26,412 bases of DNA from a virus. The translations under genes were made by a program, and so were the position numbers. The number at the start of each line of letters is the position of its first letter. Within the stretch, counting starts at the first letter, position 1. The stretch spans positions 1-26,412 of the IMG/VR virus record IMGVR_UViG_3300011114_001071; one strand, given 5' to 3'. This document shows positions 11,537 through 18,222 of this stretch, in pieces. The notes under the pieces are model-generated. The model made no database searches and had not been told where the DNA came from. It worked only from the letters and a program-made list of their open reading frames with translations.

Positions 11537-12279
11537 TGTTTTTTATATATTCTCGTGTGTCAACTGAGGAGCAAGATACTCAGACACAAATTGATTTATG
11601 CAGAAAATTAGTTGAACAAAGACCGCACCATAAAATTAAATATTTTACCGATGAAGATTCTTCAACTTCTTATATTCCAATGCAAGACCGCATAGGCTTA
11701 CAAGAAATGATATCACAGTTAAGAAAAGGCGTTACTGTTGTTATTTATGCACTGGACCGTCTTGGACGTGACATCATTGAAGGCGTTACAATTTACAGAC
11801 AGATTGCAAATGCCGGCGCATTTTTAATATCTGTTGATAATCCACTCGGTGAAACTGACTTTTCCATGAATATTAAATTTGCAGTTGCTCAAGAAGAAAA
11901 GAGAATGATCAGTGAAAGAACTCGTTTTGGCCTTAAGCAAAAACAGTCCCGATTTGAGAGGGTAGGCGCTGTATGGTTTGGCTATCAGCTTGATGAAACA
12001 AAACTACAAACCTCAAAAGAAAAAGCACCTTCTTTTGGCAAGCCTTATATGCTTATTCCGCATCCTGAAGAAATGAAAATTGTTGTTCAGGCAATCAAAT
12101 TGCGTGAAGAAGGCCTTTCATATGACAAAATAGCAGATAAATTAAATGAAGATGGCCATTTTAACAGGAATGGAAAACCATTTCAGACAATGACTGTATA
12201 TCGCATTCTGTCAAATCGAGACAACAGGTATCCAGCTCATATGCTGCAACAAGCGGGCCTGTCTCTTCAATCCATATGA
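11536..12279 (+). CDS. Serine site-specific recombinase
   Basis: 247 residues. The N-terminal resolvase domain has YSRVSTEEQ with catalytic Ser at residue 9 and Arg 7, and ALDRLGRD (72-79) with the active-site Arg pair. The regulatory helix follows (QEEKRMISERTRFGL). Residues 143-228 resemble the start of the recombinase domain of large serine recombinases, ending in an HTH-like TMTVYRILSNRDN. The coiled coil and zinc domain of large integrases are missing, so it is either a short phage integrase or an invertase/resolvase. The last 119 bp overlap the convergent RusA gene, which is large for two conserved genes. Confidence 0.9.
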   Translation: MFFIYSRVSTEEQDTQTQIDLCRKLVEQRPHHKIKYFTDEDSSTSYIPMQDRIGLQEMISQLRKGVTVVIYALDRLGRDIIEGVTIYRQIANAGAFLISVDNPLGETDFSMNIKFAVAQEEKRMISERTRFGLKQKQSRFERVGAVWFGYQLDETKLQTSKEKAPSFGKPYMLIPHPEEMKIVVQAIKLREEGLSYDKIADKLNEDGHFNRNGKPFQTMTVYRILSNRDNRYPAHMLQQAGLSLQSI

Positions 12280-12652
12280 CAGTTTTAGGGTTTGGATTGT
12301 ATAATTTCATGCATGGCCCCAACGAAACAATTTGATCGCCTGTAAAAAATATACCATCCATACAATCCAAATAAAACTTTATCAAATTATCTACATCAGG
12401 TTTTTTTGTGTGTTTAACAATGCCAGAATTGTATAACGGTAAATCTTTTTTCCTGGTGCTTTTGCAAATTGGCATTTGAAAAATAAATGAGATCCGTGGA
12501 TAATTAAATTGTTTTTCATCAAGCGATAATAATAATTTCTTTATAATATTTTTTTCTTTTGCTTGGGGATCGTAAACATTTACAACCCCCTTGCATTGGT
12601 AATATCTAGGCCGACTTTGTTGTATTGGTATGCCTGGAATGATGATTTTCAT
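12161..12652 (-). CDS. rusA: RusA-type Holliday junction resolvase
   Basis: 163 residues. RusA resolves Holliday junctions and branched replication intermediates before packaging. The signature KKPDVDNLIKFYLD carries D86, D88 and K92, followed by a GDQIV motif (D106), matching the RusA catalytic acid set, then a final strand VIWIEE. About 30 residues beyond the usual end (GPLVAAYEL onward) are encoded opposite the 3' end of the recombinase gene and may be nonfunctional read-through. The start overlaps the SpoVG-like gene stop as TAATG. Confidence 0.92.
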   Translation of the reverse strand: MKIIIPGIPIQQSRPRYYQCKGVVNVYDPQAKEKNIIKKLLLSLDEKQFNYPRISFIFQMPICKSTRKKDLPLYNSGIVKHTKKPDVDNLIKFYLDCMDGIFFTGDQIVSLGPCMKLYNPNPKTVIWIEETGPLVAAYELDTCCLDLTECDIQSLSEMVFHSC

Positions 12653-12975
12653 TAAAATGGAAGCTCTTCTTGTTCCACTATCACATCATCCGGCTTCATT
12701 TCTGGATTTTCCAACAAATATTTGTCTATTGCTTGCATAATTTGTGCTCTAAATCTGTTTTTAACTGCCTCATTGTCAAAAGAAATCATTTCAATATACT
12801 TCTTTTCTCCCATTTCTGTTTGAATTTCTTTTGATGGCAATGAAATCCATCGGTTTGTGCCTTTTTCAAAAATTTTCACATCTCTCAATGTTAATTTCCA
12901 TGGCACAATGCGCACATCGCATGTGGCCAATAGACTGCCTTTGTTGACTGCATTTATGTTTTGTACTTCTATCAT
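12652..12975 (-). CDS. SpoVG-like protein with SSB-type acidic tail
   Basis: 107 residues. ATCDVRIVPWKLTLRDVKIF, then WISLPSKEI and a later AQIMQAIDKYL, resemble the compact SpoVG fold, a nucleic-acid-binding family. The C-terminus EQEELPF mimics the acidic tip of bacterial SSB (DDDIPF), which recruits repair and replication proteins. Between the helicase loader and RusA this fits a phage single-stranded-DNA-binding protein; that role is inferred. AAGGA lies six bases before the ATG. Confidence 0.62.
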   Translation of the reverse strand: MIEVQNINAVNKGSLLATCDVRIVPWKLTLRDVKIFEKGTNRWISLPSKEIQTEMGEKKYIEMISFDNEAVKNRFRAQIMQAIDKYLLENPEMKPDDVIVEQEELPF

Positions 12976-12984
12976 ATTTTTTCC

Positions 12985-13806
12985 TTATGTTATGGGGGCT
13001 TTTCTTCTAGATTTTTCATCAAAAATCATCATTTGTCCTGTATAAAGGCGATCACTTAGCGCTTCACCACAGTAAGTGCTAAGGCTTTCTTCATTCAAGT
13101 TGGTTGTTATAATTGTTCCTCTTTCTTTCCATTGCATCCGACTGTTGATTAAGTCCATAAAAAATGACATGAAACCGGGAGATGGTTCTTTTGTTCCAAA
13201 ATCATCAATGACTAAAAGAGAAACAGAGTTTAACTTTTGGATAAAATCATTTTGATTGCTAGTATTATCCAACCAATCACTCATCATTTTTTTTTGAGTT
13301 ATAAATAAACATGAGCGATTTGCACGTGTAAATAATTCGCAAACCGCCATGGACGAATAAGTTTTTCCTGTGCCAGCATTTCCATACATCAAAACAATTC
13401 CGGATGGCTTGCATGCAAATTGCCTTAAAAACTCTAATTTTGCATTCGATTGATTCAGCTTTTCAAATGAGACATCATGATGCACATCGCCAATATCGTT
13501 TTTTTCGCAAAATAAAGGCCATTCTATGCATCTGCGAGATATGACCTGTGTATCCATAGCTCCCCATTCATTTTTGATGCCAGAACGCACGCATGTTGTT
13601 CCGCCACATATCCATACCCTTTTTTGTGAATGCGGAGGATTTACATACGGGGCATAGTGTTCTTTTCCATTGCATTTGGGGCAAACTATGGTTGATGACA
13701 TGGCCGGAATGTCTAATTTTGTCCATTTTCCGGAAGAAACATAATGCACTAACACATCTTTTTGTGTATGTAACATGTTCTTAGCCACAAACTTAAGTAA
13801 TTTCAT
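12985..13806 (-). CDS. DnaC/IstB-type helicase loader with N-terminal zinc motif
   Basis: 273 residues. The C-terminal AAA+ domain has Walker A GNAGTGKT (142-149), Walker B LLVIDD (197-202), a sensor-1-like TTNLNEESL (234-242) and an Arg-finger segment SDRLYTG (251-257). The N-terminal part has Cys at 42, 45, 67 and 72 (CPKC and CGGTTC), a likely zinc finger that E. coli DnaC lacks. Such proteins load the replicative helicase at a phage origin, usually the host helicase when none is encoded nearby. It overlaps the initiator gene by ATGA, as with lambda O and P. Confidence 0.92.
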   Translation of the reverse strand: MKLLKFVAKNMLHTQKDVLVHYVSSGKWTKLDIPAMSSTIVCPKCNGKEHYAPYVNPPHSQKRVWICGGTTCVRSGIKNEWGAMDTQVISRRCIEWPLFCEKNDIGDVHHDVSFEKLNQSNAKLEFLRQFACKPSGIVLMYGNAGTGKTYSSMAVCELFTRANRSCLFITQKKMMSDWLDNTSNQNDFIQKLNSVSLLVIDDFGTKEPSPGFMSFFMDLINSRMQWKERGTIITTNLNEESLSTYCGEALSDRLYTGQMMIFDEKSRRKAPIT

Positions 13807-14738
13807 ATGGCATTTTCTCTCATAGATTTCAGTCTCTCATGTGCGACATTGTCGTTTGAAGAAGGAGCAAATTTTCTCTTTGGCTTGCTGTTCATTTGAG
13901 AGTGTATTTTGGAAAAAGCCTCTCTGAAATTCTGTGCAGGATTAGTGGCTTTACCGCCTTTTTTGTTTGTCACAATGACGCTTTGCCAGCCTTTAAAGTC
14001 TCCCCTTTGTTCGTTGTCGGACACTGCCCATGTGAATGTTTTTAACAAAACAATGGTATTTTGCTTCTCTACTTCGACCATTTGTTTAACTTGGTACATG
14101 AATTTATTCATGTCAGTTGGCGGTCGATAAACAGGGTTGTGTTCGGCTAATATTGCCAGCATTTTCTGGGTTATCTCATGGACAAGTGGAGAAAATTCCT
14201 GTTGCTTCATTTTTTTAGAAGAAGAATTAGAAACACCAACCTCATCGGCGATAGCCGATATCGGCGAAGCCGTCTTTTTTGTGCACAGCTTAGACTCATT
14301 TGAATCATGGGTAGGTATTGTATATATTCTTTCTTCTTTACTTTCTTCTCTATATATAGAAGGGAGTGCAGGATCCTGCACATGAGGTGTGCACTTTTCC
14401 GCACTACTGCTGTGCACTTTTCCGCACACCTCATGTGCACTCACATATTCAATTTCTGGAACAATTGCTTTTCTGACTGTCCTTCTTCCATCAAAACTGA
14501 CCACCTCTAAAAGGTTTAAATCTCTTAATTCAGCCAAAAGTTCATAAAACCTTCTTCTTTTAAGCTGCATGAATTCGCATAAATATTCTTCACTTGCATA
14601 ACATCCTCCTGCTTTTGGGCAATGAAGAGAACGAAGTTCTGCCCACAATGCTTTTGCTTGCATAGACAAATCTCTTCTAAGCCAAATTTCTGATGGAATA
14701 AGCACATGTGTAAAATGACGTGATAAAAGTTCAGACAT
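13803..14738 (-). CDS. Winged-helix replication initiator
   Basis: 311 residues. The N-terminal 90 residues form a winged helix typical of phage and plasmid initiators: HVLIPSEIWLRRDLSMQAKA, CYASEEYLCEFMQLKRRRFY and a RDLNLLEVV wing. A low-complexity linker (about 95-185) is followed by a helical domain with a DFKGWQSVI motif, then a basic tail. Gene order with the helicase loader matches lambda O-P. The linker is encoded by a dense set of GTGCAC-type repeats (14366-14440), which is where lambda O carries its origin. I infer that this protein binds them. Confidence 0.82.
   Translation of the reverse strand: MSELLSRHFTHVLIPSEIWLRRDLSMQAKALWAELRSLHCPKAGGCYASEEYLCEFMQLKRRRFYELLAELRDLNLLEVVSFDGRRTVRKAIVPEIEYVSAHEVCGKVHSSSAEKCTPHVQDPALPSIYREESKEERIYTIPTHDSNESKLCTKKTASPISAIADEVGVSNSSSKKMKQQEFSPLVHEITQKMLAILAEHNPVYRPPTDMNKFMYQVKQMVEVEKQNTIVLLKTFTWAVSDNEQRGDFKGWQSVIVTNKKGGKATNPAQNFREAFSKIHSQMNSKPKRKFAPSSNDNVAHERLKSMRENAI
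14366..14440. repeat. Candidate origin: GTGCAC repeats and inverted repeat inside the initiator gene
   Basis: Contains a 16-bp perfect palindrome GTGCAGGATCCTGCAC (14366-14381), a direct repeat TGTGCACTTTTCCGCAC (14388-14404 and 14411-14427) and 16-bp perfect inverted arms TGCACATGAGGTGTGC / GCACACCTCATGTGCA (14377-14392 and 14424-14439). The GTGCAC-type boxes lie about 10-13 bp apart. An AT/pyrimidine-rich stretch (about 14318-14360) adjoins it. The arrangement parallels lambda ori within gene O. Confidence 0.7.
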
Positions 14739-16910: not shown

Positions 16911-17456
16911 GTGTCAAATAAAATAGATAGAGAAAAGTACATGCGAATCACAACAATTCTTTATCCATTCTCAGGTTTAGACAAAATAAATCCTGATATA
17001 GTGGCAAAAGCGGCAGAAAGAGGCACAAAAGTGCATCAAATATGTGAAGGCATTGTATCAGGACTAGGCGAAATTGGAATAGATGAAGAAACATCTCCTT
17101 ATGTTGAATCATTTAAAAAATGGTTTTGTGCTCCAGACATAATAGAAATGGAAAAACGCTTTTGGGATGATGAGCATGAAATTACAGGCCAAGTTGATTT
17201 TATTGTAAAAACACCAGAGGGATTGGCAATTGTTGATTTGAAAACTTCTTCTAAGCCATCAAAAACATGGCCAGCCCAGGGTTCTGCATATGCATACTTG
17301 GCCAAAAAGTCTGGATACAACATAAAAAAAATTCTATTCATTCATTTATCAAAATATGGCAAAGAACCAAAAATCTATGAATATCCTGTGGATGATTCTT
17401 TTTTTTTAAGCATCTTACGTACATTCAATCACTTTTTCAGAGGAAAAAATGGATAA
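16911..17456 (+). CDS. PD-(D/E)XK exonuclease (recombination nuclease)
   Basis: 181 residues from GTG 16911; an in-frame ATG at 16941 (MRITTILYPF) is a plausible alternative start. Motifs of the RecB/Cas4/lambda-exonuclease fold: AAERGTKVHQICE with H42, GQVDF (D96), VDLKTS with D109 and K111, and QGSAYAYL (Q123, Y127). Followed with an 8-bp overlap by a RecT-like annealing protein, it fits the exonuclease half of a two-component phage recombination system that makes 3' single strands. Confidence 0.86.
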   Translation: MSNKIDREKYMRITTILYPFSGLDKINPDIVAKAAERGTKVHQICEGIVSGLGEIGIDEETSPYVESFKKWFCAPDIIEMEKRFWDDEHEITGQVDFIVKTPEGLAIVDLKTSSKPSKTWPAQGSAYAYLAKKSGYNIKKILFIHLSKYGKEPKIYEYPVDDSFFLSILRTFNHFFRGKNG

Positions 17457-18222
17457 ACAATTAACCATACAGAAAGAACATGATGTTGCCATCCTAAATA
17501 AAGGGTTGCCATCCGAACATGAATTAATGGTATTCAATACCATTTCGAAACAAGCAGCTGACAGCAAAATGTATAATCATTACGGCGGACAGGCCGGAAT
17601 TATGATGACTATATTGGCTGCACGAGAATTGGGTATTCCCCCAATGTTAGCAATCAATGGTGGCATATCAAACATCAATGGCAAATTAGAAATATCTGCC
17701 AGGCTTATGAATGCCATGATGAGAAGAGCCGGCATTAAAATAAGCATCAAAGAAAGCACAGACGAGCGCTGTACGTTGATTGGGCAGCGTGGCGAAGGTG
17801 GAGATAGGGCTGAAGTGTGTTATACGATAAATGATGCCAAACTTGCAGGATTGATCAAATCTGGTGGAGGCTGGGTAAAGAATCCAAAGGACATGTGTTT
17901 TGCCAGGGCTATTTCGCGTTTGGCCAGACAGATTGCTCCAGACATTATTGGTGGTTGTTACATTGAAGGCGAAATAAAAGCGACTGAGTCTGCTCCACAA
18001 TTTGATATAGCAGAAATTGAAGAAATGATATTACCTGAGACAAACGAAAAGACGTTGTTTGATATGTTTCCGGAGTCAGATCATTCCATACTCAGAGAGT
18101 ATATTCAGACAGTAAGCATGCATTTTAAATGGAGTGAAGGCGAAACAATAAAAAAATTCATCGCAGAGAAAAGTATTGTTGATAAATTTAATGCCTGGAA
18201 AGGCAAAAGGAAAGAATCATGA
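17449..18222 (+). CDS. RecT-like single-strand annealing protein
   Basis: 257 residues. The core runs from GGQAGIMMTILAARELGIPP through GGISNINGKLEISARLMNAM, a KNPKDMCFARAISRLARQI segment and GGCYIEGEI. This is the order seen in phage RecT-family annealing proteins, in which the selected-for-reading CFARAxSRLARQ helix is typical. It would coat 3' tails made by the upstream nuclease and anneal them. The C-terminal 70 residues are an acidic helical extension. GAGG five bases before the ATG supports the start. ATGA overlap with the next gene. Confidence 0.82.
   Translation: MDKQLTIQKEHDVAILNKGLPSEHELMVFNTISKQAADSKMYNHYGGQAGIMMTILAARELGIPPMLAINGGISNINGKLEISARLMNAMMRRAGIKISIKESTDERCTLIGQRGEGGDRAEVCYTINDAKLAGLIKSGGGWVKNPKDMCFARAISRLARQIAPDIIGGCYIEGEIKATESAPQFDIAEIEEMILPETNEKTLFDMFPESDHSILREYIQTVSMHFKWSEGETIKKFIAEKSIVDKFNAWKGKRKES

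Follow-up and report, generated by a model that had tools for sequence, protein, structure and literature searches.

A SpoVG-fold phage protein with an SSB-like acidic tip as a probable non-OB analogue of SSB

Can the interaction tip of single-stranded DNA-binding proteins (SSBs) be carried by a protein that lacks their OB fold? The question is raised by a small gene in the replication operon of the virus record IMGVR_UViG_3300011114_001071, which was analysed whole (26,412 bases, hereafter the window). The encoded protein resembles SpoVG. In the literature SpoVG proteins figure as regulators that bind RNA and, site-specifically, DNA (PMC4959528, PMC3688583), those of S. aureus and Borrelia being reported as site-specific DNA binders (PMC3688583). 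For Listeria SpoVG, weak and non-specific binding of single-stranded DNA, with an apparent Kd of 1.2 uM, is reported without significant binding of duplex (PMC4959528). Podoviruses of C. perfringens have a SpoVG-like gene, the role of which is described as unknown (PMC3362512), and in the limited literature collection searched we found no proposal of an SSB role for phage SpoVG. Here we explore fold, tail, relatives and locus of the window protein in order to identify its likely function.

Operon, tail and predicted fold

The operon runs from the initiator via the DnaC-like loader and the SpoVG-like gene to RusA, and the exonuclease and RecT-like genes are divergent from it (Table 1). A gap of nine bases separates the loader stop from the SpoVG-like start, and the SpoVG-like stop overlaps the RusA start in a TAATG junction. 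The profile matches of loader and resolvase confirm that the gene lies between helicase loader and RusA, as a preliminary description of the sequence had it. On the far side of the operon rusA and a convergent serine recombinase gene overlap antisense at their 3' ends (12161-12279 in the window), which was seen in 13/13 loci that have both genes.

Table 1. Features of the SpoVG-like locus and of the recombination module in the window.
Feature	Position	Strand	Remarks
SpoVG-like gene	12652..12975	-	107 aa, ATG start; C-terminal EQEELPF
Predicted SpoVG-fold core, residues 1-96	12688..12975	-	six strands, then helix 69-89
Disordered acidic tail, residues 97-107	12655..12687	-	pLDDT <50; final PF invariant in alignment A2
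EQEELPF, residues 101-107 of the SpoVG-like protein	12655-12675	-	read from translation
AAGGA, likely ribosome-binding site	12982..12986	-	upstream of the SpoVG-like ATG; overlaps the loader-gene stop
DnaC-like helicase loader	12985..13806	-	directly upstream of the SpoVG-like gene; phrog_50 E 8e-29, IstB 33.4 bits
Replication initiator / DnaD- or O-like protein	13803..14738	-	HTH_36 34 bits; phrog_270, phrog_186
RusA Holliday-junction resolvase	12161..12652	-	Pfam RusA 54.4 bits
PD-(D/E)XK exonuclease, recombination module	16911..17456	+	phrog_298 E 1.4e-22
RecT-like single-strand annealing protein, possible partner of the tip	17449..18222	+	phrog_4171 E 5e-16

The core is mildly basic (residues 1-96, pI 7.81, 15 K+R vs 14 D+E) and the tail lacks K and R. 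Only one other of the 121 window ORFs of at least 50 aa ends in PF, without adjacent acidic residues.

The window protein matches Pfam SpoVG (PF04026) with 22.5 bits (E 1.3e-4), below the curated cut-off of 29.6 bits, which two of its relatives exceed (L161, 31.0 bits; L080, 107.1 bits). SpoVG was matched by all 11 members of alignment A2 (E up to 0.1), and a profile comparison of the window family with classical SpoVG sequences gave a probability of 11%. An AlphaFold2 model built with the 11 A2 sequences reached a pLDDT of 82.8. SpoVG structures take the first eight places among the 259 PDB fold matches of this model (probability 1.00, E about 0.003-0.01), and the ninth match has a probability of only 0.09. 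VIA gave Z scores of 8.7 (rmsd 2.6 over 85 residues) and 8.5 against SpoVG, with 5.3 for the first unrelated entry, and the top viral-model match is the 'Putative SpoVG protein' of Clostridium phage phiCP7R (E 1.9e-4). Given these PDB, VIA and viral fold matches, the earlier reading of the protein as SpoVG and not OB stands as a prediction. The window protein is predicted to have the SpoVG fold and falls outside the curated family by the Pfam cut-off.

Sequence searches were less informative. The PDB search gave chance matches only, NCBIfam and PHROGs no useful match (phrog_27338 was not matched), tblastn against named phages nothing useful, and no close copy of the gene was found in the genome contigs searched. 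A Pontibacter match was rejected as a chance run of nine residues within an unrelated ORF of 734 aa. A Sinorhizobium plasmid match, the neighbouring ORFs of which were judged by eye to be primase-like and ATPase-like, was excluded because it has no PF04026 match.

S. aureus SpoVG has a basic doublet, K50 and R51, both residues of which are reported to be required for DNA binding (PMC3688583). The corresponding position, as set by the weak alignment to classical SpoVG (the 11% comparison), holds K49-E50 in the window protein; E50 is invariant in 11/11 A2 members and RK is found in some wider relatives (L107, L151). Residues K12, W26, K34, K38, R42, W43, K58, K72 and R76 are invariant in A2 and could form an alternative binding surface.

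Conservation of the tip and of the replication slot

Viral contigs were searched with the window protein and then with profiles built from it. This identified 14 contigs, 13 of them with a complete gene, at 61-73% identity. The SSB-style acidic tip noted in the preliminary description is conserved in every complete relative, the C-terminus being PF in 13/13: EQDDFPF, ESEDLPF, EDDDLPF (two contigs), EDDNLPF, NSDAFPF, EDDLLPF, EDEELPF, ASDSVPF, QDGDLPF, DDDEMPF, EDEQLPF and PEDDVPF. P106 and F107 do not change within A2, unlike the residues immediately before them.

A census was made by profile scans for loader and RusA, yielding 116 loci on 99 contigs with 2862 distinct ORFs of at least 60 aa; an acidic tip was defined as PF preceded by at least two acidic residues within seven. 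PF is the C-terminus in 25/25 SpoVG-like ORFs (acidic tip in 22) and in all ten ORFs of a second family, X (acidic tip in seven), vs 22 of the 2827 other ORFs. Fourteen of these others have an acidic tip, and 9 of the 14 are OB-fold SSBs (PF00436), leaving 5/2818. As a control for circularity the profiles were cut before the tail and the census was re-run; PF was again found in 24/24 distinct SpoVG-like and 9/9 family X sequences. The unfiltered run gave two further ORFs without PF (E 0.006 and 0.0097), which lie away from the slot and were not counted. Many of the sequences are close relatives, so these tip counts are not independent events. The acidic PF tip of the window protein is beyond chance. 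Tip-bearing ORFs in the 99 contigs are almost all SpoVG-like, family X or OB-fold SSB. If the protein is indeed an SSB analogue, unrecognised proteins of this kind could be sought by a simple rule, namely a small protein of the replication module with acidic residues before a terminal PF.

The setting is conserved as well. RusA is found downstream of the SpoVG-like gene in 14/14 loci (the window and 13 relatives) and a DnaC-like loader directly upstream in 13/14. The exception, L014, has a Toprim and DnaB-type primase-helicase at the loader position, and L151 likewise has a primase-helicase, further upstream. In this swap of the replication start module (L014:607-2058, L151:703-2157) the primase-helicase replaces the initiator-loader pair and the SpoVG-like gene is constant. 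Since the gene is kept where the loader is exchanged, it appears to follow the fork rather than one loader, and the replication-module location that had been described thus holds where the helicase gene has changed. The 20 closest loader relatives (L090-L109) include 11 loci with the SpoVG-like gene and six with family X. L090 is the contig end at which L023 had yielded the first 27 residues of a SpoVG-like protein; L094 and L108 have neither family, and the RusA match is also absent from these two loci.

Family X consists of small proteins (96-105 aa) between loader and RusA in related phages, for instance L102:4808-5122, L092:4858-5169 and L105:1168-1458 (alignment A6). All nine aligned members end in PF, with tips DEEIPF (twice), EGQFPF, DIQFPF, NDDLPF, NQDLPF, EENPPF, DDELPF and EEEMPF. 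In the four members scanned the Pfam matches fell short of significance (best E 0.024) and those in PHROGs were at E 0.02 or worse; a search in named phages gave no match. The family X model is of low confidence (pLDDT 63.9). Among PDB structures SpoVG matches it best (probability 0.93, E 0.26), with a Z score of 7.3, which is under the tool's level for a clear match. Our first reading, a non-homologous displacement, became the less likely one in view of this best match and of a profile comparison between A2 and A6 of 21.8%. Family X is either a very divergent SpoVG or a different fold in the same role, its tip being constant; a distant SpoVG-fold branch seems the more likely of the two.

SpoVG proteins elsewhere show that the tail is not a general trait of the family: among 23 SpoVG matches from 395 genomes drawn from Bacteroidota, the phylum of G011, a single one, the chromosomal L031 protein (STDLPF), has the tip. 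Among 100 kin of G025, 6/15 SpoVG matches end in PF after a linker (L031/L056, L057, L061, L062, L068 and L070, with ends ETDLPF, DSDLPF and PEMPF) and the other nine are without PF. The L031 protein led to phage contigs L051-L054, the SpoVG proteins of which end in SDSDSLPF, NFELPF, SDSESLPF and ESDSLPF. The L052 gene has a Sak annealing protein (151.8 bits) on one side and a DnaD-like replisome organiser on the other, past which comes a DnaB helicase; ssb is reported to adjoin annealing genes commonly in Firmicutes phages (PMC8093625), which is the place that SpoVG takes here. The L080 protein, a strong SpoVG with the end CELPF, is encoded with a replisome organiser on one side and RusA on the other. 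PF also ends the proteins of L161, L164 and L171, which are more weakly SpoVG-like and the genes of which lie close to those for DnaB helicase, ERF or RusA; the L171 protein had no match in a Pfam scan. Tip-bearing SpoVG proteins hence occur in two clearly distinct types of phage, within their replication or recombination modules.

Other tails were also seen. The tip-bearing phage SpoVG proteins of L051 and L080 match phrog_27338, the function of which is listed as unknown. SpoVG-like proteins L086 and L088 have long tails rich in Ala, Lys and Pro that end in SDEWETD, which is acidic and lacks PF. The contigs that carry L088 and its near twin L085 measure 145,919 and 174,107 bases. Human-faecal and Staphylococcus phage records were read as mostly bacterial SpoVG without tips, and 0/5 C-termini inspected from these records end in PF.

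A probable stand-in for SSB and its alternatives

PF00436 was found in 0/11, 0/9 and 0/23 records, i.e. in none of 43 distinct records, that of the window included, and 41 of these 43 carry SpoVG-like or family X proteins. Among 45 control records that bear RusA and have neither protein in the fetched locus, 12 have PF00436 (0/41 vs 12/45, Fisher p 2.4e-4, uncorrected for relatedness and with many records being fragments). In the other 33 controls neither an OB-fold SSB nor, in the fetched locus, a SpoVG-like protein was detected; an encoded SSB is therefore not obligatory and the argument from absence is weak. A PHROGs scan of ten further window ORFs called none of them SSB. The OB-fold SSBs of related phages also end in acidic PF.

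The tail and the place among replication genes are kept in related phages, so the protein is probably an unrecognised stand-in for SSB. This builds on the computational results for fold class, tail disorder, tip conservation, place in the replication module and absence of OB-fold SSB. We regard it as likely that the window protein is a non-OB, SpoVG-fold analogue of SSB, serving as the phage's hub for single-stranded DNA binding. The SSB replacement claimed in the preliminary description thus gains indirect support, from the lack of PF00436 matches and, by analogy, from the single-strand binding reported for Listeria SpoVG (PMC4959528). The core, probably a dimer as in the crystals of B. subtilis SpoVG (PMC4959528), would form a coat on single-stranded DNA, at the phage's fork as well as on recombination intermediates, and host SSB would be replaced during infection. 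The free EQEELPF tail would dock into partners with a pocket for the SSB tip. These partners may come from the host (replication and repair proteins), from the phage (the RecT-like annealing protein, for example) or from both. The preliminary description had named host partners; these are only one option, since the tip of the HK620 phage SSB is reported to be required for the phage partner Sak4 (PMC5928155).

Were the protein an adaptor rather than an SSB, its core would bind the phage loader, the RecT-like protein or RusA and host SSB would coat the DNA, the tip tethering phage replication or recombination factors to the host readers of SSB tips or competing with host SSB. Such a role would agree with the position between loader and RusA, with K49-E50 in place of the DNA-binding doublet and with the nearly balanced charge of the core. 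We consider it rather unlikely, since the gene is retained where a primase-helicase replaces the loader, which argues against a fixed loader partner, SpoVG homologues are reported as nucleic-acid binders (PMC4959528, PMC3688583) and OB-fold SSB is absent from the 43 records.

The functions reported for SpoVG proteins (PMC4959528, PMC3688583) would also suit a phage copy of an ordinary SpoVG-type regulator, binding DNA or RNA and acting on host or phage transcripts, with the tail as a side feature. A tip that is invariant in all complete relatives and present in only 1/23 SpoVG matches of the Bacteroidota-drawn genomes, and a place in the replication module that is kept, make this improbable. 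Least credible is that the PF ending is an accident inherited within one phage clade, without any role in interaction. Many of the counted sequences are indeed closely related (61-73% identical), but PF is constant while the preceding linker varies, and the ending is seen again in family X, in the proteins of L051-L054, L080, L161, L164 and L171, as well as in some SpoVG proteins encoded on chromosomes.

With the SSB analogue as the preferred reading, the chances are about even that the SpoVG fold with an SSB tip represents a second, widespread design of phage SSB that includes the divergent family X and has tip-bearing chromosomal counterparts in some bacteria. Several SpoVG lineages would then have acquired or retained the tip, which would mark proteins of the SSB network that have no OB fold, and cellular SpoVG may itself be an SSB-like factor at root. 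If true, the tail by which SSB engages its partners can be borne by a nucleic-acid-binding fold of another kind, phrog_27338 and the unnamed family X obtain a testable function, and the root function of bacterial SpoVG is touched upon.

Comparison with known systems

The SpoVG-like proteins of the C. perfringens phiCP7R group and of phrog_27338 are, like the window protein, phage proteins of about 100 aa; the window protein has no match to phrog_27338. With SpoVG itself (PF04026; 2IA9, 2I9X, 2I9Z) it shares the predicted fold, core length, strand order and C-terminal helix. It differs in its score below the Pfam cut-off, in having NRW and K-E for the NGLF and basic-doublet motifs, in its acidic PF tail and in its setting in a phage replication operon. 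The SSB of HK620 (DUF669 type) is likewise phage-encoded and has a tip, NDYPPF, reported to act on a phage annealing protein (PMC5928155). That protein is described as a distant homologue of known phage SSBs with measured single-strand binding (PMC5928155), whereas the window protein has a predicted SpoVG fold. From OB-fold SSBs (PF00436) it is set apart by the lack of a predicted OB fold and of a PF00436 match in its record, and it resembles them in its disordered acidic PF tail and in the position of its gene in a replication or recombination module.
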